64,000 nt of DNA from Klebsiella aerogenes KCTC 2190 (GTDB lineage Bacteria; Pseudomonadota; Gammaproteobacteria; Enterobacterales; Enterobacteriaceae). The notes below the pieces were generated by a model. It had not been told where the DNA came from. It made no database searches and saw nothing but the letters and a program-made list of their open reading frames with translations. The stretch spans positions 4,092,001 to 4,156,000 of the forward strand of contig NC_015663.1 in the NCBI RefSeq assembly GCF_000215745.1, given 5' to 3'. This document shows positions 36,197 to 55,854 of this stretch, piece after piece (within the stretch, counting starts at the first letter, position 1; every line of letters starts with the position of its first letter). Both the position numbers and the translations under genes were made by a program.

Positions 36197-36203
36197 CTCC
36201 CGG

Positions 36204-37460: not shown

Positions 37461-37684
37461 GCGTTATCGCCTGAATAAATATGCCCTTTTGTATTAGCCC
37501 TTCACTCTCGGCTATTAATACAAAAATTTAACCAATGTGCATCATGACATGTCCAAGCCGGATAAGTCCACGCTTTGCGCGGGTGATCACATTCATTGTA
37601 TAAATATGTTCATTTGCATTAATGATGCTCTGCGCCCACTATTAAGGGGCCCGAAATGAGGACATATCAACTCCAGGAGGAAAC

Positions 37685-38134: not shown

Positions 38135-38141
38135 ACAAAAT

Positions 38142-38170
38142 CCCTGGCTATCCGTTGATAGTCAGGGGTT
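38142..38170. terminator. Terminator after ivy
   Basis: CCCTGGCTATC and GATAGTCAGGG form an 11-bp stem (one G-T) with a CGTT loop, 7 bp after the ivy stop and before the convergent membrane gene. The T run after it is short. Confidence 0.7.
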
Positions 38171-38191
38171 GCTCACCGCCTTTACCACTCC

Positions 38192-38779
38192 CTATTTGCG
38201 CTGCCGGCGTAGTTTGCCCGCGAGAAGAGCCAACCGATGGCTACGACAATAAATCGTGAACAGCACGAATCCCTGGCGGTTAAATATTAGCCGGCAACAC
38301 AGTAATGCCAGCGCGGCGAATGCCAGCGGCCAGAGGCTTTCACCTGCGCTGACCATCGCTCTCAACGCTTGCGCCGCCGTTGACGCTGAGAGGAGAAGAA
38401 ATAGCGCCAGAAATCCCTTCAGCCCGAGGGTATAACCGCGAGCCAGCAACACGCCGCTGGTCAACAGAAAAATAACCACCACTAGCGCTGGTACAAAGAA
38501 ACTCGCTACCCGTATCGGCGCAGAGAATGGCGGGAGCGTCTGCAAAAATGGTAGCAGATTGAATGCAAAAGCCACTAAGAACAGTGGGAATAGCGCGGCG
38601 ACCGGAAATGGGTTTTGCCGGGGACGTTCGCCAGGTGGACGCGAAAAGTAGCGTTCAAGTTCTGGCGTGGAGTGATTCAGTGAGGTGCCGTCCCGGCGCG
38701 CAATAGCGCGGTCTATCTCCCGGCCATGCTGCAGGAGATCGTAAAAAGGCTTCCCGAGAATGATGTTCAGGTATGGCAT
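38192..38779 (-). CDS. T6SS-linked polytopic membrane protein, possible orphan immunity protein
   Basis: This is a 195-residue protein not recognised by family. A polar N-terminus of about 55 residues is followed by four hydrophobic helices (about 58-160) and a basic tail (RSHRLALLAGKLRRQRK). It lies 14 bp after the PAAR-like gene, where the effector and immunity genes of DUF2169/PAAR-like modules usually stand; no effector gene is present between them. Its general plan matches the candidate immunity protein at 33668-34270. It may be an immunity gene left after effector loss, or itself a membrane-acting cargo. Confidence 0.65.
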   Translation of the reverse strand: MPYLNIILGKPFYDLLQHGREIDRAIARRDGTSLNHSTPELERYFSRPPGERPRQNPFPVAALFPLFLVAFAFNLLPFLQTLPPFSAPIRVASFFVPALVVVIFLLTSGVLLARGYTLGLKGFLALFLLLSASTAAQALRAMVSAGESLWPLAFAALALLCCRLIFNRQGFVLFTIYCRSHRLALLAGKLRRQRK

Positions 38780-38793
38780 CTGGAACGTGTTTC

Positions 38794-39186
38794 CTACGGC
38801 GCCAGCATCAATACCTTGAACTGGCTGGGGACGATGCGCATACCGACCGCATTTGTCGAATTTTGCAGGCTAACGCTGGTTAGACGCGTCGCCGGCGTGC
38901 CTTTTAACAACACGGTAAATGCACCGGTCAGATGACGCGACGGCCCCATCACCGTACCTGACGCCACCCCGGTCGCCACGCCGGGGTTATCGCCGTTGGT
39001 GAGCGGCGTCACCGTCGCCATATTGTGCGCGGGCATGCCCATAAACAGAATATTGAGCGCGTTAGGGATCGCCGTCGGCCCCAGCGCGATGTCCGGATAG
39101 GGAATTGGCGTCGGCGCTGGCATCGGGGTCAGACAGACGTCGGGGAAGGCTAAATCGACACCGAATAGCTGGCAGTTAGCAAACAT
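38794..39186 (-). CDS. PAAR-like spike protein (DUF4150)
   Basis: This is a 130-residue protein. The ATG at 39186 has an AAGGAG Shine-Dalgarno; upstream in-frame sequence belongs to the DUF3540 gene. The sequence opens MFANCQLFGVDLAFPDVCLT and has the Pro-rich PMPAPTPIPYPDIALGP and repeated short beta motifs (GMPAHNMATVTPLTNGD, GVASGTVMGPSRHLTGAFTVLLKG) of DUF4150 tips. These cap the VgrG spike and carry or recruit effectors, often with a DUF2169 adaptor, which is encoded three genes upstream. There is no C-terminal toxin extension here. Confidence 0.88.
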   Translation of the reverse strand: MFANCQLFGVDLAFPDVCLTPMPAPTPIPYPDIALGPTAIPNALNILFMGMPAHNMATVTPLTNGDNPGVATGVASGTVMGPSRHLTGAFTVLLKGTPATRLTSVSLQNSTNAVGMRIVPSQFKVLMLAP

Positions 39187-39196
39187 AATTAGCTCC

Positions 39197-39802
39197 TTAG
39201 CCCATGTGGATCTGTTCTGAATCGACTTTGGTGATCGCTTTTGAGGTGATAACCGTATTGTGCGCATGCAGGCGGGCGTAATCTTCCGCTTTCATATCCA
39301 GCTGCCCGGCGCGCACCTGCTCGGTCTGCCGGGTAGTGCGCAGCAGATTGTGGCTAATTTGCGTCACCGTTTGCCAGACCGATTCGGCGCGTTTGCCAAC
39401 AATACGTGACAGTGTCACCCATGCCGATAGCTTATCGCCGCTGTAGTTCATCTCGCTGATATGGCAGTCCCCCTGCGCGGCATTGACGCACAGCCGCTGA
39501 CCGCTGAGGCTGAGTTCCCCATGGCTTTGAATATGCAGGTCACCCGGTACGCTGAGCTCCGCCTGGCGGCTTTCATCACGCTCCAGCACCGCTAACAGCC
39601 AGATCTGGTTGTCCACGCTGCTGATGAGTACGCGATCCCCAGCCTGCGGCGCGATCAGACAACTGACCGCTCGCCGACAGTGCCAGCCGCGCCCTTCGCT
39701 CTCGACGGTCACGCTACCGTCGGCAAAGCAATGGGTCACCGTGCCGGAAGCCTGCGCCGGCGGCATCACCGCCTGGGCCAGTTTGTGATTAATGGTTGTC
39801 AT
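39197..39802 (-). CDS. DUF3540 family T6SS-associated protein
   Basis: This is a 201-residue protein. The ATG at 39802 has an AAGGAG Shine-Dalgarno 7 nt upstream, better than an ATG 14 codons earlier that overlaps the preceding gene. It has a small beta domain (GTVTHCFADGSVTVESEGRGWHCRRAVSCLI, then GDRVLISSVDNQIWLLAVLERD), then a VgrG/gp5-like repeat stretch (GDLHIQSHGELSLSGQRLCVNA). DUF3540 proteins accompany DUF2169 and PAAR-like DUF4150 genes; the beta repeats suggest a spike-associated adaptor. Function beyond that is not established. Confidence 0.82.
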   Translation of the reverse strand: MTTINHKLAQAVMPPAQASGTVTHCFADGSVTVESEGRGWHCRRAVSCLIAPQAGDRVLISSVDNQIWLLAVLERDESRQAELSVPGDLHIQSHGELSLSGQRLCVNAAQGDCHISEMNYSGDKLSAWVTLSRIVGKRAESVWQTVTQISHNLLRTTRQTEQVRAGQLDMKAEDYARLHAHNTVITSKAITKVDSEQIHMG

Positions 39803-39813
39803 CTGTTGTCTCC

Positions 39814-40884
39814 TTAACAACGGCTGTGGCGCTGGGCGCTCCACGCCTCAGCGGCTAATAACTCTTCATCGTATTCCAGGATCCCCTGGCGGCCAGTAAA
39901 CAGCGCTTCGTCCTGGCGGGCGCGATGCAGTCGGGTGCGGGAAAAGGTCGCACCGCGCAGATCCGCCTGGCGCAGGTCGGCGGCGGAAAAATCGCTCCAC
40001 GTCAGATCGCAGAGCGCGAATCGCGCCCCGGCGGCCTGAACCCGCTGTAAAACGCTCTGGAACAACCTGCTCTGGCTAAAGTCGGCCTGCTCCAGTATCG
40101 CGCCGACAAATATCGCCTGGTCGAACAGGCTGCCGCGACACTGGGCGCCGCGCAGATCGGCCTCCATAAACAGCGCCTGGCTGGCGTTCACCTGATTGAG
40201 TTCTGCTTCACGCAATGACGCGCCTTTGAAATTGCACTGGGTTAGCTGGGCGCCGTTAAACTTCGCGCCGTCCAGCGGACAATCGGTGAACTGGCAACCG
40301 GTAAACCCCTGCCTTGAATAGTCTTTGCCGCGCTGATCGCACTGGAAAAACACCAGCCGGTCGCACTGCATTCCGTCAAGCGCGGTGTCCCGCAAATCGA
40401 TATGGTAAAAGGTGGTCAACAGACCGCGGCTTTGCGCAAAGCTGGCGTGAGTCAGCTCAGCCTCATAAAACACGCTGCGTTCCAGCGTTGAACCGCAAAA
40501 ACGGCTCCTGCTCATCTGGCAACGCATAAACTGGCTGCTTTGCAGCGTCGTCGCCGAGAAATCGCTCTCTTGCAGGTCGCACTGATTAAACACGCAACTA
40601 TCAAGCGCGGTTTCGGCGGCCTGAAGATGGGCCATTTCACACTGATTGAAGGTCGTCTGCTTAAGTTGGGCGCCTTGCAACTGCAGGTTCTGCAGCTGGC
40701 ACTCGGTAAACAGGGCTTCATGCAGATTGGCATTTTGCAGATTAGCGCCGCGTAGCGACACCTCCTGAAACAGACCGCCGGAGAGATCGCAGCCCTGCAG
40801 GTTGATACCATCCAGCGATATTTCATTGAGTGGCTCGCCGTTTTTGATGCGCTGAACGATCTCCTCCGGGCTCAGTATCGTCAT
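39814..40884 (-). CDS. Pentapeptide-repeat protein of the T6SS delivery module
   Basis: This is a 356-residue protein built almost wholly of pentapeptide repeats of the A(D/N)LxX type (GANLQNANLHEALFTECQLQ and on through ADLRQADLRGATFSRTRL), which fold as a right-handed quadrilateral beta-helix. A short non-repeat N-terminus (ILSPEEIVQRIKNGEPLNEI) and C-terminal tail flank it. It overlaps the DUF2169-pentapeptide gene by ATGA. Such proteins sit beside PAAR-like genes and may scaffold the spike; a DNA-mimic role as in MfpA/Qnr is another possibility but less likely here. Confidence 0.88.
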   Translation of the reverse strand: MTILSPEEIVQRIKNGEPLNEISLDGINLQGCDLSGGLFQEVSLRGANLQNANLHEALFTECQLQNLQLQGAQLKQTTFNQCEMAHLQAAETALDSCVFNQCDLQESDFSATTLQSSQFMRCQMSRSRFCGSTLERSVFYEAELTHASFAQSRGLLTTFYHIDLRDTALDGMQCDRLVFFQCDQRGKDYSRQGFTGCQFTDCPLDGAKFNGAQLTQCNFKGASLREAELNQVNASQALFMEADLRGAQCRGSLFDQAIFVGAILEQADFSQSRLFQSVLQRVQAAGARFALCDLTWSDFSAADLRQADLRGATFSRTRLHRARQDEALFTGRQGILEYDEELLAAEAWSAQRHSRC

Positions 40885-43421
40885 ATCACTTCTCCATCGC
40901 GCTTCGGCAGGGTTTTAATGCGTTTGGTCCATGCGCCATCCAGCCGCGTGGTTTTACTGGTAAAGGATTGTGAAAGATCGGCGCGGAACAGATTGGCGCC
41001 TTCGAAATTGGCCCCGGCCAGCTGGCTTTTTTGCAGCAGCGCGCCCATCAGGTTGGCGTCGGTAAAATCGGCTTCGCGAAAATCGGTGCGAACAAACAGA
41101 CTGCCGACCAGATTCGCGCGTATAAAGCTGGCATCGCGACAATCGGCCTCACTCAGATCGCTGTTTTCGATTTTTGCCAGCACAAAGCGCGCGCCCTGTA
41201 ATGGCGTCTGGCGCAAATTGCTCTGCTGCAGCGTCGCGTGGCTGAAGTCGGCGCCGATAAGTGAACTTTCCGACACCGCAGCGCTGGCTAGCCATGTTGC
41301 AGCTCTAAAATCAGCGCGCTCCGCTATGGTCTGCACCAGCGAACAGCTTTCCAGCGTCGCCTGATGGAAAATGGCATGCTCCAGTTCAGATTGTAAAAAC
41401 GAGCATTTGTGCAGCCGCGCGTGGCTGAAATCAGGTTGTGCCAGCGTCAGTTCCATAAAGACACAGCCATCCAGCTCGGCGCGCTGAAAACGGCAGTCAA
41501 TCAGGCTGATTTCCCGAAGGATCAGCGTTTTTAGCGTCGCGTGATCGAAAATGCATTGCGCAAACAGCGCGTTCTGTAGCTGACTATCTTCAAAGCGAGC
41601 GCCGGTGAAGTCGCTTTGATGGCACTCCGCCAGTACCAGGCTGGCGCCGCTAAAATCACAGTTACGCAGCGACGAATGCTGTAGCTCCGTTCTGGCCAGC
41701 ACGGCCCCCTGAAAAGAGGCGTTATCCAGCTGACAGTGGCTGAGGTCCGCGCATTCCAGTAACGCCTTTTCAAAATTGGCGCCGCGAAAATCCATGCCGG
41801 AAAAATCAACGCCGGTCAGATCCATCCCGCTAAAATTGCCGCCCTGCGCCATGGTACGCTCGGCGCGTTGGCGCAGGATCATCGCCAGATCGCCCTTCAG
41901 CCGGACCGCCGGCGGCTGATGCTGCACCGCGGCCAGGTACATCTGATGTAGCGCCTCGCGCGTTTGCGCGCGCTTTTTCTCGCTCAGTTCGTGCTGGTGC
42001 TGATGCAGCATCTCCTGCATCCGGTGCATGGATTCGGGGCCGCGCGGTTGGTTTTCATCGTTATTCAACTGCGGATAGTGCGCCTCCATCTCACGCTTGC
42101 GCTGTTGTGCATCATTCTCCATTTCCTGCGCCTGACGCTCCATGTCGGCGATAAACTCCGGCAGGTCTTCAAGCTTAGGCAACGTGGGTTCGTCGATATC
42201 CGCCAACAGGCTATCGATATCACCGCCGCTGGCTTCAATGGCGGCGCGGTGCTGTTCACGCAGCAGACGGGCGCGGTTTTTCATATTCTCCTGCTGCGGA
42301 CTCGGCGACTGTTCAATTTCATTGTCGATCCACGGGCCGATGGTCTCTTCCGGTATGAGATCCTTTTCGCGGAAGGAGAAGAGCGCGCCCTTCTCTTTAT
42401 CCATTCGCTGGGCCAGTACCTTGCGATAGTGATTAAGCGAACGGGCGGCGCCCTCTTTTTCCAGCGCCGGGATCAGCTGCAGGACGTCGGCGGCATCGTC
42501 TTCATTGATACGAATGTGCCCCTGCCAGATAAGCATCATCTGTTCCCGATGGGGAAAGAACCATACCGTGGTGGCGCGTAAGGCAATTTCTTCAAATAGC
42601 GTTTCATCCGCGCGCTGGCGATGAATAAAACAGCGAGCCTGCCACGGCGGCAGCTGGCCCTCCTGCATTGGTTTCTCAGGATGCATATTCCAGATCCGCC
42701 ATTTCGCCCCTGGCGGCAAGGTATCCCGATCCTCCCACCATTGGTCCGGGCTGGCGGCGTTAAAGACTTTCCAGTCAATATCGCTGGCAAAACCGGGAAA
42801 ATCCTGTTGTAGCCAACTGGCATCATATTTTTTGCCCATACGGCTAAAGCGCCGCGGCCACTGAATATCCAGCGGGCCAAAACTTGCCGGCTGCGGTTTC
42901 TGCTGCGGCGAGCTTACTCTTCCCTCCAGCGGTTCAATATTCGGCAGAGGATGATGTTCGCGCCCCTGCTGTTTTACCGGCGCGACACCAAGCCCGTGCG
43001 GGTTGTCGGCATAATCACCGCCGCCAAAGGCGCGGCTCCAGTCGAGGCGCATTTCGCTAAACGGCTGCGGTCGGGTCATACGTTGCCCCGTCCACTCGCG
43101 ATCGCCGAACACCACCAACGACTTACTCAGTTTGTCGATATCGATGCGCGCCACGCAGGCGCTTTTTTCCTGCTGATGATGGGTATAGGCAAAACCGGTG
43201 GCAAGAAATTCGGCGCGGACTTTAGGGATGGCCATATCCACCACGCCGCCGCTGGTTTGTAGTTCGTCGGCGGCAAGCTGCCACAGTTCCATCTCGGGGC
43301 GCAGCTGGGGGTTTGGCCCCATATCCGCCAACGCCAGCACCGAAACGCCAAGATAATTTTTGCCCTGCCAGCGGAATGGCCGGTTCAGTACGCTCAGGCG
43401 TAAGGGTTTAATGATTTTCAT
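40881..43421 (-). CDS. DUF2169 adaptor fused to a pentapeptide-repeat domain
   Basis: This is an 846-residue protein. Residues 1-310 match DUF2169 (LRLSVLNRPFRWQGKNYLGVS, AFGGGDYADNPHGLG, FNAASPDQWW), the chaperone that loads effectors onto PAAR-like proteins. Residues about 380-510 are charged and helical, probably coiled coil (DMERQAQEMENDAQQRKREM). From about 540 to 830 there are pentapeptide repeats (GMDLTGVDFSGMDFRGANF onward). The fusion ties cargo loading to a beta-helix scaffold. It follows the small-protein array on the same strand, with GC content back to the level of the core locus. Confidence 0.88.
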   Translation of the reverse strand: MKIIKPLRLSVLNRPFRWQGKNYLGVSVLALADMGPNPQLRPEMELWQLAADELQTSGGVVDMAIPKVRAEFLATGFAYTHHQQEKSACVARIDIDKLSKSLVVFGDREWTGQRMTRPQPFSEMRLDWSRAFGGGDYADNPHGLGVAPVKQQGREHHPLPNIEPLEGRVSSPQQKPQPASFGPLDIQWPRRFSRMGKKYDASWLQQDFPGFASDIDWKVFNAASPDQWWEDRDTLPPGAKWRIWNMHPEKPMQEGQLPPWQARCFIHRQRADETLFEEIALRATTVWFFPHREQMMLIWQGHIRINEDDAADVLQLIPALEKEGAARSLNHYRKVLAQRMDKEKGALFSFREKDLIPEETIGPWIDNEIEQSPSPQQENMKNRARLLREQHRAAIEASGGDIDSLLADIDEPTLPKLEDLPEFIADMERQAQEMENDAQQRKREMEAHYPQLNNDENQPRGPESMHRMQEMLHQHQHELSEKKRAQTREALHQMYLAAVQHQPPAVRLKGDLAMILRQRAERTMAQGGNFSGMDLTGVDFSGMDFRGANFEKALLECADLSHCQLDNASFQGAVLARTELQHSSLRNCDFSGASLVLAECHQSDFTGARFEDSQLQNALFAQCIFDHATLKTLILREISLIDCRFQRAELDGCVFMELTLAQPDFSHARLHKCSFLQSELEHAIFHQATLESCSLVQTIAERADFRAATWLASAAVSESSLIGADFSHATLQQSNLRQTPLQGARFVLAKIENSDLSEADCRDASFIRANLVGSLFVRTDFREADFTDANLMGALLQKSQLAGANFEGANLFRADLSQSFTSKTTRLDGAWTKRIKTLPKRDGEVI

Positions 43422-43466
43422 ATAGCCCTAATGCGATAGGTTCTTAAGGGGAATTGATGCTTAGCA

Positions 43467-43838
43467 TCAGACATTACGATAATCGAGGTAGTAGAAATGT
43501 TGTGGGTCGTCCTGGTGAACGCGAATATTGATTAATTGATTCACCTGAACCTCAGATTGGTCTTGCGCGGGGAATATAACGCCGCGGATGCCCTGCAGTT
43601 CTTGCTCATGCCAATGATAACGAAGGGTCAAAATGGCTGAGTAGTGATTATTAATTCGCTGGTCGCGATCGTATTTGATCTGCAGGATGGTGGCCTTAAC
43701 ATTGACACCATTCATTTTCGTTTTTTTATCTTGTCGCGCAGAACGTATATTCTGCATCGCAACCCAGGCCACAAAGAGCAATACTACCAGCGGAATGGCC
43801 CATGCCATGGTTAGCACTATGGTAGAGACGATTTCCAT
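43467..43838 (-). CDS. Small one-TM protein, DUF3592-like (array member 9, type D)
   Basis: This is a 123-residue protein with an N-terminal transmembrane helix (WAIPLVVLLFVAWVAMQNI) and a predicted beta-rich soluble domain (NGVNVKATILQIKYDRDQRINNH). The NG-x-x-V-x-A/V-T-I-L core also occurs in the protein at 50232-50621, so the two are paralogues lying at opposite ends of the VgrG region. It is the last array gene before the DUF2169 gene. Function is unknown; membrane-tethered immunity or periplasmic assembly roles are possible. Confidence 0.75.
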   Translation of the reverse strand: MEIVSTIVLTMAWAIPLVVLLFVAWVAMQNIRSARQDKKTKMNGVNVKATILQIKYDRDQRINNHYSAILTLRYHWHEQELQGIRGVIFPAQDQSEVQVNQLINIRVHQDDPQHFYYLDYRNV

Positions 43839-43857
43839 GTTATCTCCTGATTAGTTC

Positions 43858-44238
43858 TTACAAAAAAAGCGGCCTGTCGTATAGCGCAATTCTCTGCGGG
43901 TTCGCCGGATCGTATTTAATCGTTGTGCCATTACCCGGCTTAAAACGTTCAATGTCGCTGAAATTCAGGGTGTGATTCAGGCTAGCTTGAACTTCCACCT
44001 GCTCGCGGGTCTTAAATTTAAAGGTGATACGATAGATCGGTTTACTTCCGCTCCAGGCGCTGGTCTGGTGTGCGGCAATTATATCCGCGTTGACCGCAAT
44101 GCCGGATTGCAGGACCTCACTGTGGGTGAAACTATCCTTTAAATACGGGTAAAAATCCTGATAAAGAAAACGGGCCATGGGATAGATACCAAACACCAGG
44201 ACAATCAGCCCCATGACGATAAAAAAGAGTATATCCAT
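43858..44238 (-). CDS. Small one-TM protein, type C, second cassette
   Basis: This is a 126-residue protein with one N-terminal helix. The C-terminal two thirds is nearly the same as the protein at 45619-46005: SGIAVNADIIAAHQTSAWSG, then IERFKPGNGTTIKYDPANP and a shared YDRPLFL end. The GxxxxAxI, GNGTTIKYDP and NPxRI pattern is DUF3592-like. It is the fourth gene of the second copy of a four-gene cassette. Function is unknown. Confidence 0.78.
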   Translation of the reverse strand: MDILFFIVMGLIVLVFGIYPMARFLYQDFYPYLKDSFTHSEVLQSGIAVNADIIAAHQTSAWSGSKPIYRITFKFKTREQVEVQASLNHTLNFSDIERFKPGNGTTIKYDPANPQRIALYDRPLFL

Positions 44239-44244
44239 AGTGAA

Positions 44245-44643
44245 TTAACCCACATCACCGATTTGCATAATAGCAATCTTATTGCCGCGTCCTTTCTTAA
44301 CGACAATGGACAGCCCTTTACGTAATAGATGTATTTGTGCTGGTGCAATCAGCGCCTTGGCGCAAAATAATTGAGGCATTTCATCGATGCGAAAATATAT
44401 ATCGAAAAATAGATTATTACCGAGCATTACATTAGTTTGTTGCCAGAATTCAATCCGCGAACTCAGTAAGTCTCCTCGCCAGCGTTCGCGTTTTAAATAG
44501 ATTTTCACTGACTTTAGTTGTAACGATGACTTTCTGAATGTGAAATAGGTGGCCATCATGAATAATATACTTACTGATAAACCAATAATCACGGGTATCA
44601 TTTCCCCTGGAGACATATTGGTGATCCATTTTTCAAATGACAT
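44245..44643 (-). CDS. Small one-TM protein, type B2, second cassette
   Basis: This is a 132-residue protein with one transmembrane helix (EMIPVIIGLSVSILFMMAT) followed by a soluble domain in type B order (VKIYLKRERWRGDLLSSRIEFWQQTN ... LLRKGLSIVVKKGRGNKIAIM). It is the most diverged of the four type B proteins and corresponds in position to the gene at 46074-46451. It stands 6 bp before the type C gene. Function is unknown. Confidence 0.75.
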   Translation of the reverse strand: MSFEKWITNMSPGEMIPVIIGLSVSILFMMATYFTFRKSSLQLKSVKIYLKRERWRGDLLSSRIEFWQQTNVMLGNNLFFDIYFRIDEMPQLFCAKALIAPAQIHLLRKGLSIVVKKGRGNKIAIMQIGDVG

Positions 44644-44735
44644 AATTATCCCTGGTGGGTTTCAGTTCAGGCTTCACAATTCATTATTTTAGGTAAAAAG
44701 ACATCTTGGTTTTCTCACAATATAGAGAGACTCCA

Positions 44736-45083
44736 TCACTCCATCTCCCAAGGTGTTGGTAATAACTCTTTGGGATTATCAGGCATGTAGTAGATGTAAA
44801 TAGTATTGTTTCTCATGATTTTTACCATATTTTGCGGGGAAATATACTGTTTAGCCGTTGCCGTCACCAGACCTGAGTCAGTATTGAAAGATAATTCCAT
44901 TTTAAGTTTAGTGCTCCCTCCGCCACTCGCGCCAATTTTTTCCATGCTTAATATTTTAGCCTCGGTACGAATGCCATTTGCCTTAAACTTATCATAATTG
45001 GAGCCTGAACGATAACAATATAAGAACAAACCAAACAAAATTAAAACGGCTAATATTAATGTTCCCCACATAGAGTCAAACAT
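44736..45083 (-). CDS. Small one-TM protein, type A, second cassette
   Basis: This is a 115-residue protein with a transmembrane helix (TLILAVLILFGLFLYCY), then NGIRTEAKILSMEKIGASGGG, a beta-rich core and YYMPDNPKELLP at the end. It pairs with the 115-residue protein at 46494-46841 (same length, same GxK/RxEAKI, ISPQNMVKI/ITPEEMVKI and YYxPxxP blocks). It is DUF3592-like. Function is unknown. Confidence 0.77.
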   Translation of the reverse strand: MFDSMWGTLILAVLILFGLFLYCYRSGSNYDKFKANGIRTEAKILSMEKIGASGGGSTKLKMELSFNTDSGLVTATAKQYISPQNMVKIMRNNTIYIYYMPDNPKELLPTPWEME

Positions 45084-45188
45084 AATGATCCATTAATGAT
45101 GAAGTTCACCACATATTAGAAATTCTGTGAGTGTTTTTAAGTGGCCACCTAAATGGCCACGAGCATAGAAGTCTAGTGGATACCCTGT

Positions 45189-45578
45189 TTATTCATAATC
45201 CACATCCATAACAGCCATTCGTTTTGGCGGAACGCCCTCATGCTTTATAGTTAATTGAAGCCCCGGTTTTAATTTGGGGATTTCTGAAGCACGTACCACG
45301 GCAGCAGCATTATACTGTTTTGTCGTACCCTCAATGTTCGCCTCAAAGGTAAATACGAAATAATAATCGAAATTATTGGTCGCGTTAGTTTGACGCCAAC
45401 TTACCAGAGATGCGTTTTTTATCTCACCGGGCCAGCGCTCACGGCTTAGCCAGTTTTTTATTTCAGTAAGGTCCCCGCCCTGTCCTTTGAGACTTCGCAG
45501 CGAACCGAACAATAGAAAAAAGCTAAATGCAACCGATGCAATAACAATTAACAAAGAGTGTTGATAAATAAAGTTCAT
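45189..45578 (-). CDS. Small one-TM protein, type B1, second cassette
   Basis: This is a 129-residue protein with one N-terminal helix followed by SLKGQGGDLTEIKNWLSRER, SWRQTNATNNFDYYFVF, KQYNAAAVVRASEIPKLK and EGVPPKRMAVMDV. These blocks match the protein at 47042-47416 almost one for one, which makes it the first gene of the second cassette copy. The W-L-S/A-R-x-x-W-x-G and W-x-Q-T motifs define type B. Function is unknown. Confidence 0.78.
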   Translation of the reverse strand: MNFIYQHSLLIVIASVAFSFFLLFGSLRSLKGQGGDLTEIKNWLSRERWPGEIKNASLVSWRQTNATNNFDYYFVFTFEANIEGTTKQYNAAAVVRASEIPKLKPGLQLTIKHEGVPPKRMAVMDVDYE

Positions 45579-45618
45579 TGTTAGCTCTTTTAGGTTTTAA
45601 ATATAAATAATTGTCACA

Positions 45619-46005
45619 TTATAAAAATAATGGTCTGTCATAAATTGCGATTCGTTTAGGATTTTTAGCGTCGTATTTTATTGTTGTCCCATTGCCGGGT
45701 TTAAATCTCTCAATTTCTTCAAAGCTTAGCCCCATATCAACACTCGCTTCGGTTTCAACACCTTCAAGAGTGTTAAATTTTAAGGTCAAATGGTATATTG
45801 GCTTATTTCCACCCCACATACTAGTTTGATGAGATGCAATAATATCGGCATTTACTGCGATTCCTGTTTTAAGAACAGCGCTTTCAATAAACCCAGCCTT
45901 GATCATAGGGATAACGGAACTACGAAAATTCCGCCCAATAATATAGAGTGCTATAAGGCATGCCACAAGCAGAATATAAAACCATTTTGTATTTAGAAAA
46001 TCCAT
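45619..46005 (-). CDS. Small one-TM protein, type C, first cassette
   Basis: This is a 128-residue protein with one N-terminal helix (FYILLVACLIALYIIGRNF) and a soluble domain GIAVNADIIASHQTSMWGGN, GLSFEEIERFKPGNGTTIKY and RIAIYDRPLFL. It is the closest relative in the window of the gene at 43858-44238. It ends the first cassette copy. Function is unknown. Confidence 0.78.
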   Translation of the reverse strand: MDFLNTKWFYILLVACLIALYIIGRNFRSSVIPMIKAGFIESAVLKTGIAVNADIIASHQTSMWGGNKPIYHLTLKFNTLEGVETEASVDMGLSFEEIERFKPGNGTTIKYDAKNPKRIAIYDRPLFL

Positions 46006-46073
46006 TTAATCAATTCCAGGTCGTGATTTTATAGGTAGAATGAAATATCAAATATTACTGCACCATTACACAT

Positions 46074-46451
46074 TTAATAATTAACGGAAGTAACCGCTAT
46101 CTTTAGAGGCGTGTTATTACTGTACATTACTGATAATAACATTCCTTTCTTTAATTTATGAATATCATCGGGTCTTACAATGCCTTTCGCAATGTATTTT
46201 TTTACAGAACCGTTTATATTTGCATTAAAATAGAAATCATAAATATAATCATTGCCGTACTTTGTTTCTGTCTGACGCCATGATTCTAGCGGAACCTGGA
46301 TTGTTTGACCGGACCACTTATCTCTCGACAACCAGTTTTTAATTGCTGAAACTTCAGTTTTATTCGGTTTGAAGGCAGCAAATGATATACCTAATGCTAT
46401 GATTGTCACCACAATGCCAAAGATAAAAGATGGTTCCGTGATGACATTCAT
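46074..46451 (-). CDS. Small one-TM protein, type B2, first cassette
   Basis: This is a 125-residue protein with one N-terminal helix and the type B pattern AIKNWLSRDKWSGQ, SWRQTETKYGNDYIYDFYF, YIAKGIVRPDDIHKLKKGML and PLKIAVTSV. It lacks the GVPPK block of the B1 proteins. It is third in the first cassette. Function is unknown. Confidence 0.77.
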   Translation of the reverse strand: MNVITEPSFIFGIVVTIIALGISFAAFKPNKTEVSAIKNWLSRDKWSGQTIQVPLESWRQTETKYGNDYIYDFYFNANINGSVKKYIAKGIVRPDDIHKLKKGMLLSVMYSNNTPLKIAVTSVNY

Positions 46452-46493
46452 AGGGTTGCATCCGTGCTGTTAACAAAAACTATCATCAATAGT

Positions 46494-46841
46494 TTACTCC
46501 ATATCTCCAGGAACAAGGTAGACTTTTTCAGGGGCACCTGGGAGGTAATATAAAAAAACTGTATTTTTCCTACCAATTTTAACCATTTCTTCCGGAGTTA
46601 TAAAGCGACGAGCATATGTGACGACAATTCCATCGGGAGTCATAAATTCCAATTCAAACTTAAATTTCATATTTCCGGTGCCAGAGGTACTTATATGTTG
46701 TTTACTAATGATTTTAGCTTCAACTTTAATGCCTTCCTTACGAAACTTCTCATCATTATTTCCTGACTTCATTATACTGTATAAGAACCACCCCAAAACT
46801 AAAATGGTTATAAAGATAGACCACATTGTTGAATTTGACAT
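46494..46841 (-). CDS. Small one-TM protein, type A, first cassette
   Basis: This is a 115-residue protein with one N-terminal helix (WSIFITILVLGWFLYSI), then EGIKVEAKIISKQHISTSGTGN, RRFITPEEMVKIGRKNTVFL and YYLPGAPEKVYLV. It has the same length and block order as the protein at 44736-45083. DUF3592-like. The 200 bp before it (46842-47041) hold no gene that I can support. Confidence 0.77.
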   Translation of the reverse strand: MSNSTMWSIFITILVLGWFLYSIMKSGNNDEKFRKEGIKVEAKIISKQHISTSGTGNMKFKFELEFMTPDGIVVTYARRFITPEEMVKIGRKNTVFLYYLPGAPEKVYLVPGDME

Positions 46842-47041
46842 CGTAAAATCTTACATTAAGTGAACCATTGATGGCTGTCTTATTTTAAATGCTAAAAATT
46901 GAGAAATCGTTAGGTTCTGGATTGATTATTTATTACCAGCTAAAACCAATGGAAAGGAAACGCAGCATTTGGAGGCCGTTTCTATGCCATGTTCCCTATC
47001 AAAGGGTAAAGCAGCAATTATATGTCGTGCATCGACTAGTA

Positions 47042-47416
47042 CTAGCCTACGCTCATGACTGCTGTTTTTTTTGGGGGTACTCCCTGGTATTTGAACATTA
47101 CAGGCATATCCTTTTTTAATTTAATGACTTCAGAGGTCTTTAACACAGTTGCTGCTTTATATGTTTGAGCTTCACCACTCAAATTAGACTCGATAGTAAA
47201 AATATAGAAATGGTCAAAATTATTGGTAGTTGATGTTTGTTTCCATTCTTTTAATTTTCCTGTTGCTAATTCGCCGTTCCAGTTGTCTCTTGCAACCCAA
47301 TTTCTTATTTCACTAAAATCTTCCTTCTGTCCCTTTAATCCTCTGAGACAGATGAAGATGAATATCAACATTACACCTAACGCAATAGGTCCTGAGTGTT
47401 CAGAAAGGAAATTCAT
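47042..47416 (-). CDS. Small one-TM protein, type B1, first cassette
   Basis: This is a 124-residue protein with one N-terminal helix (PIALGVMLIFIFICLRG) and the blocks GLKGQKEDFSEIRNWVARDN, EWKQTSTTNNFDHFYIF, TYKAATVLKTSEVIKLKK and QGVPPKKTAVMSV. It is the first gene after vgrG (9 bp) and the first of the duplicated array. Position right behind a VgrG suggests a link to that spike's cargo, for instance as immunity. Function is unknown. Confidence 0.78.
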   Translation of the reverse strand: MNFLSEHSGPIALGVMLIFIFICLRGLKGQKEDFSEIRNWVARDNWNGELATGKLKEWKQTSTTNNFDHFYIFTIESNLSGEAQTYKAATVLKTSEVIKLKKDMPVMFKYQGVPPKKTAVMSVG

Positions 47417-47425
47417 ATATACCTC

Positions 47426-49822
47426 TTACATAAACATGTGGATAAAACCAATAACTACATTCTGCAATGAAGATTCTATTTTTGTTAGAGATCTAGTTAC
47501 ATTCATTGGAGAGTGGACAATACTTGCTAATGACGTTGGCATGTTTAATGGTGTCCAACTAAACGATGCACCATTCACAGATGTGCTAAGTCCGTTGAAG
47601 GAGTGTGTTGTGCCATTTAATGATACACTTATTCCCTTGTTAGTGAACAACCCCTCAGGGGAAACAATTTCTACTTTAGTATCGCTTTTTATAGATATTT
47701 TTAATGGTGAGTTAATAGATATTTTGCCTTGAACCGTTTCATTAAGTTCACCCAGGATATTTCTAGCAACATTCCCTTTAACGTCTACTATTTGATTATT
47801 ATCCACGGTAAGTTTGTCAATACCTTGGATATGCGTTACAACCCCTTTTTTGTATGTCACTCTGGTGGCAGCGGAAACTGCGCTTGTAGAGGCTGCTGCC
47901 AAATAATCTGTTGCGTAGAGCTTGGTCCCTGGTGCAGCCATAATCTGCCCAGCGGTATTTTTAATATCAAAAGGTATATTGGGAACTGCACTTTCTGTAC
48001 CTTTGGCATCGACAACCTGACCAAAGATAACATCTGGCGTTTCGTACATTATCTTCGATGCCGCCAAAGTGCTAACCGTATCACCGCTTTCGGTTACCAC
48101 ATTGCCGGTATAACTATTACTTGAATAACCCGTAACCGATTTTGTTTCACTATCGACAATGCTTTCATTACGTCCATTAGCCGTGATAGCGATGGTTTGC
48201 CCGGCATTAAAGGTTTGCGTATCGTGGCCTACCACACTAGTGGAACGCGTATTTAGATGTGAATAGATCGTTTGCTGATGAACAACTTCATTGTGCATCC
48301 CTTCAACAGACACGTTCATATTTTTTTCAGAATGCAAATCGACGGACTCTTCACCAAGCTTATCTTCAAAAAACAGGTAACTGGCATTGTCCTGATTCCC
48401 ATCCTTACTCCGCGTCATAAAGCCCATCCGGGTGGCGTCGCCGGGGAGATCCCATGGCGGCATGCTGGCTTCATTATACACACGTCCGGTGACGATCGGG
48501 CGGTCAGGATCGCCGTTGATAAAATCAATGACCACTTCATCGCCGACGCGGGGAATTTGCACGCCGCCAAAGCCCTGGCCTGCCCAGGCGCTCGACACGC
48601 GAACCCAGCAGGAGCTGGTGTCATCGCCTTTGGCATGGCGGTCCCAGTGAAACTTCACTTTGATGCGGCCATACCTGTCGGTCCAGATGCTTTCCCCTTC
48701 AGGCCCGACAACTTTCGCCGTCTGCGGGCCATAGGTTCGCGGCCAGTCGGTTACCTGCGCCGGGCGATAGACTACCGAAGAGGGGATCACTCTAAAATGG
48801 ATTTGGTGCGAGATATCGCTATTGCCGCCGCTGGCGTAGCTGTTCTCTTCAAACAAGTAATCTGCGGCGGTCGTCAAATATTCGCCATTATCGCTAAAGA
48901 ATGGCGCATTAGTTAGGGTAAACGTTGCGCCGGGAGCGATGCCTACCGCGGTGGCGGACGCCTGGATCTGCTGATGTTCAACCTGCCAGCGCTCCTGGCG
49001 GATACGCGCGTAGAATTCACCGTGTCCGTGATCGACAAACCGCCCCGGCCAGTCGTACACGTCGATACTGCCCGGCGAGGGCGATGCCGGGTTCTGCCGC
49101 GCCTGAAACAGCCAGGCGTTAGGTTTACGGAAATCATAGTCATCGAGGCTGTAAATCCCCGGCGTCACGCTATCTTCCAGCGCCCACTGACCGATCCCCT
49201 CTTCAGTGGTAATACCGCCCGATGCCGTCTGGTGGTAGGGAATGGTTTCATAGCCGCTTACCGGTTGATGCTGGGTGGCTGAATCGGTCAGAACCATCGT
49301 ATGTTTACCCGCCTCGTGACGGAAATGGTAGGCAATCCCCTCCAGCTCCATCAGGCGGCTGATAAAGGCGAAACTACTTTCCTGATACTGGACGCAGTAA
49401 TCCCAGACGCGGTAACTGCCGTTCAGCTTATCCTCAACGTTGACCTGGTATTCACTCAGCAACGTATTGATGATCTGCGGTACCGTCTGCCCCTGGAATA
49501 TACGCAGGTTGCGGTCGCGTTTCATCGGCCATAAGTCGGGTTCAACGATCAGTTGGTAAGCGGCGTAGCGGATACCGCTCAGTTCAACGGCGCTCACCGC
49601 CACGCGGGTAATTTTACCGTTGAAATAACGCGAACTCAGCGCGTTTTGCGTCGGAATGGTCACGGTGACCGGCTGGCCAAGCAGCTTGCTGCGATCCAGA
49701 CGCGCATCGCTGCCAAGCAGCGTTAAGCTGAGCTCGAACATTTCCGACATGGCTTCATGTCCGCTGAGTTTCCAGAAAAGCAGCCCCTCAACGGGGAGCT
49801 GAACGGTGATCCTGTTAGACAT
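47426..49822 (-). CDS. vgrG: VgrG/TssI spike protein with long variable C-terminal region
   Basis: This is a 798-residue T6SS spike. The ATG at 49822 gives the typical MSNRITVQLPVEGLLFWKLSG; an ATG 13 codons upstream is less likely. The gp27-like part covers about 1-380, and the gp5 OB fold follows (RIKVKFHWDRHAKGDDTSSCWVRVSSAWAG, then GDEVVIDFINGDPDRPIVTGRVYN). After that come the needle repeats and about 250 residues of variable beta-repeat sequence (VVGHDTQTF ... ISIKSDTKVEIVSPEG). Base composition drops to AT-rich from roughly 48350 downward, so the last third looks exchanged. The C-terminus (NVVIGFIHMFM) has no known enzyme motif. It probably specifies the cargo encoded downstream. Confidence 0.94.
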   Translation of the reverse strand: MSNRITVQLPVEGLLFWKLSGHEAMSEMFELSLTLLGSDARLDRSKLLGQPVTVTIPTQNALSSRYFNGKITRVAVSAVELSGIRYAAYQLIVEPDLWPMKRDRNLRIFQGQTVPQIINTLLSEYQVNVEDKLNGSYRVWDYCVQYQESSFAFISRLMELEGIAYHFRHEAGKHTMVLTDSATQHQPVSGYETIPYHQTASGGITTEEGIGQWALEDSVTPGIYSLDDYDFRKPNAWLFQARQNPASPSPGSIDVYDWPGRFVDHGHGEFYARIRQERWQVEHQQIQASATAVGIAPGATFTLTNAPFFSDNGEYLTTAADYLFEENSYASGGNSDISHQIHFRVIPSSVVYRPAQVTDWPRTYGPQTAKVVGPEGESIWTDRYGRIKVKFHWDRHAKGDDTSSCWVRVSSAWAGQGFGGVQIPRVGDEVVIDFINGDPDRPIVTGRVYNEASMPPWDLPGDATRMGFMTRSKDGNQDNASYLFFEDKLGEESVDLHSEKNMNVSVEGMHNEVVHQQTIYSHLNTRSTSVVGHDTQTFNAGQTIAITANGRNESIVDSETKSVTGYSSNSYTGNVVTESGDTVSTLAASKIMYETPDVIFGQVVDAKGTESAVPNIPFDIKNTAGQIMAAPGTKLYATDYLAAASTSAVSAATRVTYKKGVVTHIQGIDKLTVDNNQIVDVKGNVARNILGELNETVQGKISINSPLKISIKSDTKVEIVSPEGLFTNKGISVSLNGTTHSFNGLSTSVNGASFSWTPLNMPTSLASIVHSPMNVTRSLTKIESSLQNVVIGFIHMFM

Positions 49823-49860
49823 AATATTATTCCATTCAGGGGGATACAGTTTGTGCAGCA

Positions 49861-50235
49861 CTAGCTGCGCGTTAACAGTGGGTTCGGCAGATCGACCAGC
49901 ACCTGTTGCGGGTCAAGGCGCAAGTAGCGTAACGGAATCGGCTTTCCCGGTTGAAAGTTTTGGATACGCGTAATATCAATAACGATATCCCGCTGACCGG
50001 TCAGCAATTCACCTTTTTCGTTAACGTAATTAAAATCGACGCTAATATTAATAAACCCGGAATTACCGCCCGAGCGGCTTCTCACATTTGTGATGGTGCC
50101 AGACACCGCAACGCCATCATTGTGGATAGCCGCTTTGAGTTTTTTATTTTTCGCATCGCGAATCAGCAATGACGCAAAAATATAAATAAACAGTAGGACC
50201 ACGGCCAGAACGATTACGTTAGTAAAAATATTCAT
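49861..50235 (-). CDS. Small one-TM protein, DUF3592-like, upstream of vgrG
   Basis: This is a 124-residue protein with an N-terminal helix (VIVLAVVLLFIYIFASLLI) and a soluble beta domain (NDGVAVSGTITNVRSRSGGNSG ... FQPGKPIPLRYLRLDPQQVLV). The pattern is that of the DUF3592-like array beyond vgrG. It overlaps the previous small gene by ATGA and stands 38 bp before vgrG. Unlike the array, its base composition matches the core locus. Function is unknown. Confidence 0.77.
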   Translation of the reverse strand: MNIFTNVIVLAVVLLFIYIFASLLIRDAKNKKLKAAIHNDGVAVSGTITNVRSRSGGNSGFINISVDFNYVNEKGELLTGQRDIVIDITRIQNFQPGKPIPLRYLRLDPQQVLVDLPNPLLTRS

Positions 50236-50621
50236 CTTCCACTCGTCAGTTTTGGCTTATCGTTAATATCTCTTACAAACACAATGGCGTTATCTTTTGG
50301 CTCGAGTTTTGCTTCATAAGTCACTCCGACCTGCCAGGCATCGAGGGTAATGAGCAAAACCGTTTCCTGGTGCTTTTCCACAAGCCACGTTTTTCCATTA
50401 TTTAAATCCTGTACCCGCAGATCCATATCAATGACAGGATTGTTGTTGATAAATAATCCGGTTTGCCGCATTGCGAGTATCGTAACCTGGATATCGTTCC
50501 CGTTTTCGATAATCCGCTGCTCCCGCCGTTGCGAGTTTTTTACTATGCGGTTGGCAAGGTAAAAGCTGATGAAAATAATAACCAGCGTCAATACTGCGTT
50601 GATAATCCAGCCTGGCGTCAT
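50232..50621 (-). CDS. Small one-TM protein between ppkA and vgrG (type D)
   Basis: This is a 129-residue protein with an N-terminal helix (INAVLTLVIIFISFYLANRI) and a soluble domain ENGNDIQVTILAMRQTGLFI, similar to the NGVNVKATILQIK block of the protein at 43467-43838. It lies 78 bp after ppkA. That related genes stand both before and after vgrG suggests the array grew from a core-locus gene. Function is unknown. Confidence 0.75.
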   Translation of the reverse strand: MTPGWIINAVLTLVIIFISFYLANRIVKNSQRREQRIIENGNDIQVTILAMRQTGLFINNNPVIDMDLRVQDLNNGKTWLVEKHQETVLLITLDAWQVGVTYEAKLEPKDNAIVFVRDINDKPKLTSGR

Positions 50622-50699
50622 TAAACACTCCTTGTTGACCAGTGATTAGCCACCCGCCGTGCATTTCTGGCGGGTGGATTTCGCTCTCAATTGCGCCAT

Positions 50700-52136
50700 C
50701 TAGCTCGATGGATTAATAAGCCAGGTTCCCGGTTTGGCGATATCCAGCGTCTGCTCGCGGGTTTGTCCATTACCCTGCAGGGTAATTTCATAATGTCCCG
50801 GCGCCAGTTTCAGCGAGGCGAAGCCGTTTGTGGCCGGTTGCGTATTATGTGGTTCGCCATTGAGTTTGAGCTTTTCCCCTTCCCGCATGCGCACGTAAAC
50901 CTGAGCAACAGGCGCCGCCGCGGCGGCAGGTTTGCTCTCTTGAACAGCAACGGGCGGAGCGGTCTGCGCGTTAGCGGTCTGCGTTGTTACCGGCGGCGTA
51001 ACCGCCGCTGGCGGCTGGGTGCTGGCGCTCTGTGCTGGTTGCGCCTCGCTGCCGCCGCCGCTGAACAGCATACCGCCGGCAATAATGCCGACCAATACGC
51101 CTGCGGCGACCATCCCCGGAACCTTATAGCGCCGCCAGTCTGTCGCGGCGGGCTCCTGTTCTTCCTCTTCGACCAGCGCCAGCATGGTGCCGGTTTTTTT
51201 GACCGACAAGACGTCATCGATACTGGACACCGGCATTTCAATCAGCTCGGCGAACGCGTCGATTGACTGGGGACGATCTTCCACCCGCAGCGCCAGAGCT
51301 TTATCTACCGCCTGTAGCAGCGGCAGCGAGTAACCCGCCGGCTTCAGTTCCGCCAGCGGCTGATAGTTGTCCTGAATACTCCGCACCACGCTCACCGGCG
51401 GCGGTGAACCCACGATCAGCGTATGCAGCACAGCGCCGACGGCATAAATATCGGTCCAGGCGCCCTGTTCGCTGTCATTATCGTCGGTATACTGCTCGAT
51501 AGGCGCATAACCCGGGCGCAGCATAGTTTCGGTTTCGTCGGAGAGATTACCGATGGTCCGGCGCGCCGAACCGAAATCGAGTAGCACCGGCAGGCCGTTA
51601 TCCTGGATCTGGATATTTTCCGGTGAGATATCACGGTGCAAATAGCCGGCGTCGTGAATGGTTTTAATGGCGCCGAATAGCATCGGCAGCATCCGGCGGA
51701 TCCATGCCTCATCGATGAGGTTTGGCTGCTGTTCGCGCAGGCGGCTCAAGGTGGTGCCGCTATAAAACAGCGTGCCCATATAGGCGGTGTCGTTCTGAAC
51801 CCAAAAGCGCAGCACGTGCAGCAAGTTGGGATGATTAAAGCGCGCCAGCAGCCGCGCCTCCTGGATAAAGCTGTTTAATCCGGCTGAGAACGCTTTGCTG
51901 AAGCGCTCGCTACGCAGTACCAGGGTCATATCTTCGTTACGTACCGCCAGCGACGAAGGCATAAACTCTTTTATCGCGATGGTACGTTCCAGCTGATGGT
52001 CCCAGGCGCGATACACAATGCCGAAACCGCCGCCGCCAATCACTTCCTTTATTTCAAATTCGTTAAAACGATACCCGACCGGCAGCGCGTTCAGGACAGT
52101 CCGATTGTTTTCGTGATCCGTCATCTTAAGACTCAC
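50700..52136 (-). CDS. ppkA: T6SS serine/threonine protein kinase PpkA
   Basis: This is a 478-residue membrane kinase. The N-terminal Hanks-type domain (about 20-290) has the G-loop IGGGGFGIVYRA, the catalytic Lys in IAIKEFMP, HRDISPENIQI and DFGSARRT. A transmembrane helix at about 345-365 (GMVAAGVLVGIIAGGMLF) leads to an Ala/Pro/Gln-rich linker and a small periplasmic PEGA-like domain (LKLNGEPHNTQPATNGFASLKLAPGHYEITL). With PppA and the FHA protein it forms the post-translational switch that triggers T6SS assembly. It lies 12 bp after clpV. Confidence 0.93.
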   Translation of the reverse strand: MSLKMTDHENNRTVLNALPVGYRFNEFEIKEVIGGGGFGIVYRAWDHQLERTIAIKEFMPSSLAVRNEDMTLVLRSERFSKAFSAGLNSFIQEARLLARFNHPNLLHVLRFWVQNDTAYMGTLFYSGTTLSRLREQQPNLIDEAWIRRMLPMLFGAIKTIHDAGYLHRDISPENIQIQDNGLPVLLDFGSARRTIGNLSDETETMLRPGYAPIEQYTDDNDSEQGAWTDIYAVGAVLHTLIVGSPPPVSVVRSIQDNYQPLAELKPAGYSLPLLQAVDKALALRVEDRPQSIDAFAELIEMPVSSIDDVLSVKKTGTMLALVEEEEQEPAATDWRRYKVPGMVAAGVLVGIIAGGMLFSGGGSEAQPAQSASTQPPAAVTPPVTTQTANAQTAPPVAVQESKPAAAAAPVAQVYVRMREGEKLKLNGEPHNTQPATNGFASLKLAPGHYEITLQGNGQTREQTLDIAKPGTWLINPSS

Positions 52137-52148
52137 TTTCTGATGGTG

Positions 52149-54761: not shown

Positions 54762-54810
54762 GTTCGGTTCCATTGATAACATTAATAAAGGTGTCAGAGT
54801 GCAGACGACA

Positions 54811-55854
54811 TCAAGCGTCGCTCTGCTCCACGCTAAACACTAAATCGCCACGCGGCGCGGGGGCTGGCTGGTGGCCAAGCCAGGTGCTGTAACCCAGTTT
54901 GCCGTCGCCGCTGAGGACCGTACCGGGTATTTCATCGCCGCGGATAAGTACCCTGACATCCCATGCATATTCGATCCCAAGATACTGGCGGATCCAGTCG
55001 CGTAATTCGTTTACCGCGTTTTCGCCCGGCAGAAAACGGGCGTATTCGGCGGCGCTAAGCGGGCCGATTTCAAGGCGGAATTTATGCTGAACATCGCGTA
55101 CCGCGACGCCGAGAAACGCCGAGACGCCCAGGCGAGGTAAACGCCTTCCCGCCCCCAGTTGCGCTTGTTCTCGCGAGGTCAGCGGCATCCATTGCGGCAC
55201 GTTGCTGATAATGTTGACCGGGACTTTGAAGTAATTTCGCAGGATCTTCTCCAGCCCTTCCGGATCCCGACCATGGCGGCTGAGATGGCCTGCGTGGGTG
55301 AAACGCGCATGCGGGCTCAGGTCGCCCTTCTCCAGTTGCCCCGGCTGGCCCATGCCGATGAGTGAGGCGAGATAGCGCTCAAAGCGGCGGTTGTCCGCAC
55401 GGTCTAACGATACCGTTGGCTGCGCGTCGGCCCAGGCGCGGTAGAACAGCAGCGTCAGGCGGTGATGAAAGAGATCGGCAAAAGCGCTCAGGCTGTCGTC
55501 CTGATGATGATGAATACGCTCGCGGGCGTATTCGGTCATATGAACCGGCAGCGGGCCATTGGGGCCGAACAGACCGAAGCTGAGAATCGATATCTCATGC
55601 ACCGCGCTATTTGCCCGTTTTTGCGCGCTGGCCAGCGTCGCGGGGGCAAACCCCATTGATGGCGTTTGCCCGATGCGCAGCGATTCGAATTTCGGCAGCG
55701 GCGCGCGCCCAAGCGGATAACGTTCGCCCCCTTGCGCGTCAATGCGGCGCAGCAGATGAAAAAGGTCGTAGCGCCAGGGCGCGGCGGTAACCTCGCGCCA
55801 GAAAACGTCCGCCAGCGGCGTCAGGCGATGAATGGTAGCCAACGTGTCACTCAT
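54811..55854 (-). CDS. tssG: T6SS baseplate subunit TssG
   Basis: This is a 347-residue wedge component (ImpH/VasB). Typical blocks are WRYDLFHLLRRIDAQGGERY, FESLRIGQTPSMGFAPATL, LSFGLFGPNGPLPVHMTEYA and FADLFHHRLTLLFYRAWADAQPTV. TssG binds two TssF and one TssE in the wedge. Its start overlaps the tssF stop by ATGA. Confidence 0.95.
   Translation of the reverse strand: MSDTLATIHRLTPLADVFWREVTAAPWRYDLFHLLRRIDAQGGERYPLGRAPLPKFESLRIGQTPSMGFAPATLASAQKRANSAVHEISILSFGLFGPNGPLPVHMTEYARERIHHHQDDSLSAFADLFHHRLTLLFYRAWADAQPTVSLDRADNRRFERYLASLIGMGQPGQLEKGDLSPHARFTHAGHLSRHGRDPEGLEKILRNYFKVPVNIISNVPQWMPLTSREQAQLGAGRRLPRLGVSAFLGVAVRDVQHKFRLEIGPLSAAEYARFLPGENAVNELRDWIRQYLGIEYAWDVRVLIRGDEIPGTVLSGDGKLGYSTWLGHQPAPAPRGDLVFSVEQSDA

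Follow-up and report, generated by a model that had tools for sequence, protein, structure and literature searches.

Why is the vgrG gene of a type VI secretion system (T6SS) cluster in Klebsiella aerogenes accompanied by eleven small genes for membrane-anchored proteins, and how did such an array arise? A first-pass annotation had described eight of these genes as a tandemly duplicated four-gene cassette, and had proposed for them an immunity repertoire, an adaptor repertoire or an envelope-stress module. We analyzed the locus within a window of 64,000 nucleotides (G000:C1:4092001-4156000, in a genome of 5,280,350 bases), with a sister species (G004) as reference and loci in other genomes (L numbers) for comparison.

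Organization of the locus

The T6SS cluster lies on the minus strand of the window and, read on that strand, comprises a putative tssF, tssG, a putative clpV, a kinase gene, E, D, vgrG, eight small genes, p1, a DUF2169-pentapeptide gene, a pentapeptide gene, a DUF3540 gene, the PAAR-like DUF4150 gene and a membrane protein gene. All eleven small ORFs were present where the first-pass annotation had placed them, all on the minus strand, and they were AT-rich as described, with a GC content of 0.34-0.47 per gene compared with approximately 0.55-0.61 in the flanks. The array comprises one tailed VgrG, B1a as the first gene behind it and ten more typed genes, two of which lie upstream of vgrG (Table 1).

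The GTG start of vgrG at 49861 overlaps gene D; VgrG is 798 aa long in many database copies, whose start is therefore probably 13 codons downstream. An Ivy-family (lysozyme inhibitor) gene adjoins the end of the T6SS cluster on the plus strand (window 37685-38134), and an Ivy-family gene with 90% identity also adjoins the cluster of G004. No RNA element was found at gathering scores in window positions 36000-56000.

Table 1. Features of the vgrG locus, with window positions and proposed roles
Feature	Position	Strand	Basis
VgrG	47426..49861	-	811 aa from GTG; Pfam Phage_GPD, Phage_base_V, Gp5_trimer_C
Polymorphic C-terminal VgrG tail, class T5, approximately the last 105 codons; proposed toxin	47426..47746	-	Covariation with next gene
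B1a, proposed cognate immunity protein of the resident tail	47042..47416	-	9 nt behind vgrG; T5 tails followed by B-type genes in five other genomes; AF2 model
A2, proposed orphan immunity gene, A type	46494..46841	-	A-type genes behind T6-tailed VgrGs L018, L024, L112
B2a, proposed immunity gene, B type	46074..46451	-	Best match of genes behind T5-tailed VgrGs L027, L106, L111
C2, proposed orphan immunity gene, C type	45619..46005	-	C-type genes behind T7-tailed VgrGs L025, L035, L057, L151 and others; no G004 ortholog
B1b, proposed immunity gene, B type, apart from tail	45189..45578	-	dN/dS 0.051 vs G004
A1, proposed orphan immunity gene, A type	44736..45083	-	64% identity to gene behind T6-tailed VgrG of G034
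B2b, proposed orphan immunity gene, B type, T4 subclass	44245..44643	-	B2b-like genes behind T4-tailed VgrGs L020, L021, L028, L031, L063, L105
C1, proposed orphan immunity gene, C type	43858..44238	-	DUF3592 E 5e-4, below cut-off; dN/dS 0.107
p1, proposed orphan immunity gene, P type	43467..43838	-	p1-like gene behind T9-tailed VgrG L022
D, proposed orphan immunity gene, upstream of vgrG	49861..50235	-	D-type genes behind T8-tailed VgrGs L023, L029, L030, L031, L033, L135
E, proposed orphan immunity gene, upstream of vgrG	50232..50621	-	E-type genes behind T3-tailed VgrGs L017, L095
DUF2169-pentapeptide protein, conserved T6SS partner downstream of array	40881..43421	-	Pfam
PAAR-like protein (DUF4150 / Tox-PAAR-like), little changed across tail classes	38794..39267	-	Pfam

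The C-terminal tail of VgrG is exchanged

Nucleotide identity between the vgrG genes of the window and of G004 was 80-93% and dropped to 38-49% past approximately nucleotide 1500, which bears out the earlier description of an exchanged tail. The window VgrG carries a variable C-terminal extension beyond its conserved core, as evolved VgrGs do. This tail matched no Pfam domain, and its nearly invariant columns included no invariant polar residue of catalytic appearance. Tailed VgrG ends were more hydrophobic than other VgrG ends. The single-chain AF2 model of the tail was poor (mean pLDDT 61.5), and a database search with the tail, word-based and blind to other tail classes in the same species, returned 118 hits, all 99-100% identical.

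A role of the tail as a specificity element for the PAAR-like protein was considered and appears unlikely, because DUF4150 remained 95-98% identical in L017, L019, L021, L147, L209 and L212; in four loci without small genes, the identity of the PAAR-like protein was 62-79%. Two beta-proteobacterial VgrGs (L070 and L077) have hydrophobic ends followed by single-TM genes, and may belong to a remote branch of this system.

The tail class predicts the next gene

Loci were collected by scanning species genomes with the window VgrG (74 loci), with more from a tail-profile search, which gave a match in 49 of 392 family genomes. The window and L017-L165 together yielded 157 VgrG frames, 147 of at least 500 aa and 111 after removal of identical C-termini. 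The tail profile matched 54 of these 111 VgrGs, and in 50 cases the match ended no more than 8 residues short of the C-terminus; the other 61 VgrGs consisted of 57 without a profile match and 4 partial matches. A TM-like gene of 90-160 aa was located within 60 nt behind vgrG in 44 of the 50 tailed VgrGs and in 3 of the 61 others (L070, L077 and L137), a count that is partly circular because the profile was built from 23 tails chosen by eye, 22 of which already had a small gene behind them.

The Mantel test, which is unaffected by this choice, showed a strong correlation between the last 70 VgrG residues and the next protein across the 44 pairs (r 0.889; partial on the core, 0.881). None of 10,000 shuffles reached this value (best shuffle 0.232), and the VgrG core gave r 0.273 against the next protein. 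After thinning of near-identical entries to 41, 35, 28 and 22 rows, r was 0.865, 0.812, 0.768 and 0.732, each reached by 0 of 5,000 shuffles, and the nearest tail was accompanied by the nearest next protein in 26/41, 23/35, 15/28 and 12/22 rows (approximately 1 by chance). Within-class correlations were positive in all five classes tested (0.61-0.90). Along the tail, r was 0.77-0.85 over the last 60 residues and 0.63-0.67 out to residue 105; it was 0.39 for residues 90-120 and lower further from the end.

Clustering at the cut used gave nine tail clusters and nine clusters of putative immunity proteins, with an adjusted Rand index of 0.667 (best of 10,000 shuffles 0.150). Two pairs of tail classes each shared one immunity cluster (X; B) and two tail classes were split over two (D; P), so the pairing is strong without being one to one. 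Types A, B, C, D, E and P each occur elsewhere as the first gene behind a VgrG of a characteristic tail class, and the X type is absent from the window. The gaps from vgrG to the next gene were short (-8 to 17 nt).

Five of the 50 tailed VgrGs (L069, L117, L119, L120 and L122) had no small TM gene behind them, and in L146 a B-type gene behind the tail fell just below the TM threshold. In four genomes of gene-less tails (L127, L128, L131 and L129), a DUF2169 gene directly follows vgrG. These tails suggest that the tail may be an older needle end turned toxic in one branch, or that gene-less tails may be harmless.

The small proteins appear to share one TM helix and an OB-like domain

The sequence blocks named in the first-pass annotation were found in the small proteins: GVPPK and TNNFD in B1, ITPEEMVKI/ISPQNMVKI in A, and GNGTTIKY and YDRPLFL in C. 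No window protein tested reached the gathering score of DUF3592 (PF12158), to which types A, C and D had been likened; all were below the Pfam cut-off, and the nearest, C1, was a weak match only (21.1 bits versus a gathering score of 25.3, E 5e-4). B-family proteins gave 2 stray Pfam matches among 44 members. A weak DUF3592-like frame also occurs elsewhere in the same genome (L002, G000:C1:2909614-2909814).

Type B had been set apart as separate; profile comparison instead joined B to C at 97%. The described architecture of one N-terminal TM helix and a beta domain was supported for B1a by its AF2 model, which consists of a TM helix and an OB-like barrel. Foldseek gave no match to this model at E 1e-3; several OB families were tied, and a DUF2500 structure was among the weak matches. 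The putative immunity types look like one superfamily of single-TM, OB-like proteins.

The array did not grow by duplication of a cassette

By type, the eight genes follow the order B-A-B-C-B-A-B-C, and this double B-A-B-C order is what favors a four-gene cassette duplicated in tandem in this lineage and diverged since. Gene order alone is weak evidence for such an event, because 12 of the 420 possible orders of four B, two A and two C genes are periodic (approximately 3%, by arithmetic). Pairwise BLAST identities between the copies were 44% (B1a/B1b), 42% (A1/A2), 57% (C1/C2) and 29% (B2a/B2b), with B2a nearer to B1b (36%) than to B2b.

Trees of 26 A, 45 B and 24 C proteins did not pair the copies by position. 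Each window copy was nearest to its G004 ortholog, where one exists, then to proteins from other genera, and never to its window twin. The starred clades held A2 in 7 rows without A1, B2b in 13 without B2a, C2 in 12 without C1 and B1b in 3 without B1a; B2a and B2b fell in the same half of the B-family tree, in separate clades. Uneven support and several long branches leave the deep branching order unsure. The G004 orthologs are arranged differently (B1b, A1, A2, B1a, B2a, B2b, C1), with no ortholog of C2 in G004, and no DNA repeat links the copies in the window, where the one reported direct-repeat pair lies between D and E. The trees, the G004 order and the absent repeats thus argue against a recent block duplication, and a duplicated cassette, as first described, is very improbable. 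The best reading is that the array grew by displacement and acquisition.

Most genes without a matching tail are retained under purifying selection

The resident tail belongs to class T5, and B genes follow its relatives elsewhere. The genome contains a single tail match, alongside 11 typed genes in the window. For 8 of these 11 (A1, A2, C1, C2, B2b, p1, D and E), the genome offers no tail of the matching class. As T5-linked B genes, B1b and B2a may be older partners of T5-like tails, and B2a is possibly not a strict orphan because its nearest relatives follow T5 tails.

Ten of the eleven small genes have orthologs in G004. The dN/dS values against these orthologs were 0.14 for p1, 0.11 for C1, 0.39 for B2b, 0.11 for B2a, 0.09 for B1a, 0.15 for A2, 0.14 for A1, 0.05 for B1b, 0.14 for D and 0.08 for E; for comparison, five conserved T6SS genes, the VgrG core among them, gave 0.05-0.10, and the membrane protein gene at 38192 gave 0.23. 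Seven of the eight orphan genes have a G004 ortholog, and these seven are under purifying selection. The tail of G004 itself is of the E-linked class, and its B1a is 85% identical and has no adjacent tail.

Remnants of tails lie beside matching genes in other genomes

Outside VgrG frames of at least 450 aa, we found nine non-redundant tail-like pieces, two pieces of one broken L147 tail being counted as one. Seven of the nine, in four other genomes, were followed by a gene of the matching type. The four remnants in G443 (L147) are broken vgrG pieces in series, each with its own small gene (A at 9 nt, E at 27 nt, C at 12 nt and X at 6 nt). C genes follow remnants in L153 and L118 (18 nt), and a D gene follows the remnant in L019 (159 nt). 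The arrangement in L153, an intact VgrG-X pair with the old tail and its C gene after it, is the one expected from displacement, whereas the L118 unit has decayed where it stood and the L019 locus is likewise decayed, neither being a displaced tail. The exceptions were L158, where a broken VgrG with an expected B type has C as the next typed gene, and L125, with no typed gene near the remnant. No tail remnant was found in the window.

Distribution of the small genes

B-type genes were present in 21 of 392 family genomes (E 1e-5), and all 21 belong to the 49 genomes with a tail match, that of G046 being a weak piece in a 124 aa frame. A T6SS link had been said to fail if homologues were mainly away from T6SS loci, and this is not the distribution observed.

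Six places off the known loci were viewed. L208, L209 and L212 lie at T6SS genes; L208 (1881-9750; G443) holds 14 typed genes (A, B, C, D and X) past a PAAR-like gene, the longest array seen, and the L209 array holds 12. L210 and L211 are degraded copies away from T6SS genes. L207 (6910-8617; G443:C1:3106000-3122000) holds two P and two B genes as a separate islet, and the 16 kb viewed around them contain no T6SS gene; this grouping resembles a stand-alone acquired defence islet. The degraded B-type gene of L211 (6404-7883; G124:C13) lies beside a frame that we presume to be integrase-like, which hints at mobile carriage.

In an order-wide tail search, 9 of 394 genomes matched, 8 of them in this family; the sole match outside it was weak, lay in a 2858 aa frame and was taken as chance. 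A VgrG island in a Serratia strain was 91-98% identical to one in G043, which points to between-family transfer. A tblastn search of 72,556 plasmid records with B1b returned no match at E 1e-5.

Proposed mechanism and alternative readings

We propose that the locus encodes a polymorphic VgrG-tail toxin/immunity system whose array has grown by sequential displacement, and from the sequence evidence we put the probability of this reading at roughly three in four. The interchangeable C-terminal tail of VgrG, approximately 60-105 residues long, would be toxic to target bacteria; insertion into the inner membrane, or its perturbation, is the most likely mode of action. The first gene downstream of vgrG would encode a single-TM, OB-like immunity protein matched to the tail and able to neutralise it. 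Recombination would swap the tail and this first gene as a unit and push the older immunity genes aside; displaced tails would decay, and displaced immunity genes would be kept. In the window, the current pair would be the T5 tail and B1a, the eight genes without a matching tail class would be orphans directed against the tails of relatives, and B1b and B2a would be further B-type genes. Of the three roles first suggested, the immunity repertoire fits the covariation, the remnants and the purifying selection best, and the adaptor and envelope-stress roles do not hold up as well.

The covariation of tail and first gene would also be expected if each small TM protein served as a chaperone or adaptor specific to its tail and staged VgrG at the membrane, the tail then being a docking element and no toxin. 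The gaps of -8 to 17 nt would suit the co-expression of such partners, and VgrG C-terminal TTR domains may bind cargo, according to the accessible part of one report (PMC11148199). This reading is weakened by the eight window genes that lack a matching tail class in the genome, seven of which are nevertheless under purifying selection. In compact loci (L021, L022 and L025), the stretch from vgrG to the DUF2169 gene also holds no further variable gene that could be cargo, and some tailed VgrGs do without a small TM gene. We regard a chaperone or adaptor role as unlikely.

The small TM proteins might themselves be effectors loaded on matching VgrG tails, and the covariation would again follow; T6SS effectors with TM segments exist. 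Long arrays retained without matching tails make little sense if their products are never loaded, and the compact loci offer no separate partner gene for each small gene, so that this reading seems to us quite improbable. A T6SS envelope-stress module unrelated to the tails would accord with the single TM helix, the OB-like domain and the DUF2500 structure among the weak fold matches. It leaves both the tail covariation and the remnants beside matching genes unexplained, and we give it almost no weight.

Relation to known systems

Orphan T6SS immunity arrays formed by displacement are already known from Vibrio cholerae (Kirchberger et al. 2017, PMC5361080); what we propose as new is a short VgrG tail as the putative exchanged effector, with candidate antidotes of one TM helix and an OB-like domain. 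As far as the available text of that study goes, the likeness covers a single effector-immunity pair in current use with retained immunity genes after it, an exchanged vgrG 3' end, same-genome copies that are not mutual closest relatives (A, B and C trees), and orphans that match genes paired with tailed VgrGs elsewhere (A, B, C, D, E and P). Displaced effector 3' ends are a further likeness, seen here in L153 and L147 only and not in the window. The two differ in the exchanged effector, here a short VgrG tail, and in the apparent single-TM, OB-like build of the immunity types.

As in evolved (specialised) VgrG effectors (PMC11148199), the proposed toxin would be a C-terminal extension of VgrG; the variable tail here, however, is shorter than the 120 aa required in that screen, has no Pfam domain and gives no sign of an enzyme. 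Geller et al. (PMC11148199) state there that only extensions of at least 120 aa were kept, after removal of needle-like ends, and their screen probably missed the present tails because of this requirement. The vgrG islands of Pantoea and Erwinia (De Maayer et al. 2011, PMC3235180) resemble the present locus in that the low-GC 3' ends of vgrG vary, as do the low-GC genes that follow, but the main text of that paper does not contain the word immunity, and the extensions named in the parts considered here are enzyme-like.

Immunity genes kept without a toxin, as in L207, recall the stand-alone islets of S. Typhi (PMC7400221) and the Bacteroides AID systems (in PMC12469244), going by the available text of both papers; unlike these, most copies of the small genes here are in T6SS or vgrG loci. 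The main text of the Klebsiella survey PMC12469244 contains neither the word aerogenes nor DUF3592. A literature search, with subscription papers and preprints outside its scope, found no description of this tail/antidote family in the portions of text it covered, and 0 papers combining DUF3592 with type VI secretion.

Implications

The wider proposal concerns minimal T6SS toxins: a trimeric VgrG spike would end in polymorphic, membrane-active tails of 60-105 residues without a separate toxin domain, each neutralised by its own single-TM, OB-like protein, and enterobacterial arrays of up to 14 antidotes would be a record of past tails. Going by sequence data, we judge the odds of this generalization to be about even. 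It would describe a possible toxin class lying below the 120 aa extension cut-off of the published screen (PMC11148199), as given in the accessible part of that paper.

The sequence rule itself is simple: the class of the VgrG tail predicts the kind of gene that comes next. It turns many unannotated Enterobacteriaceae genes into testable toxin-immunity pairs, and it predicts which strain would be protected against which tail. G004, for example, should resist the window tail because it carries a B1a that is 85% identical, despite its own E-linked tail.
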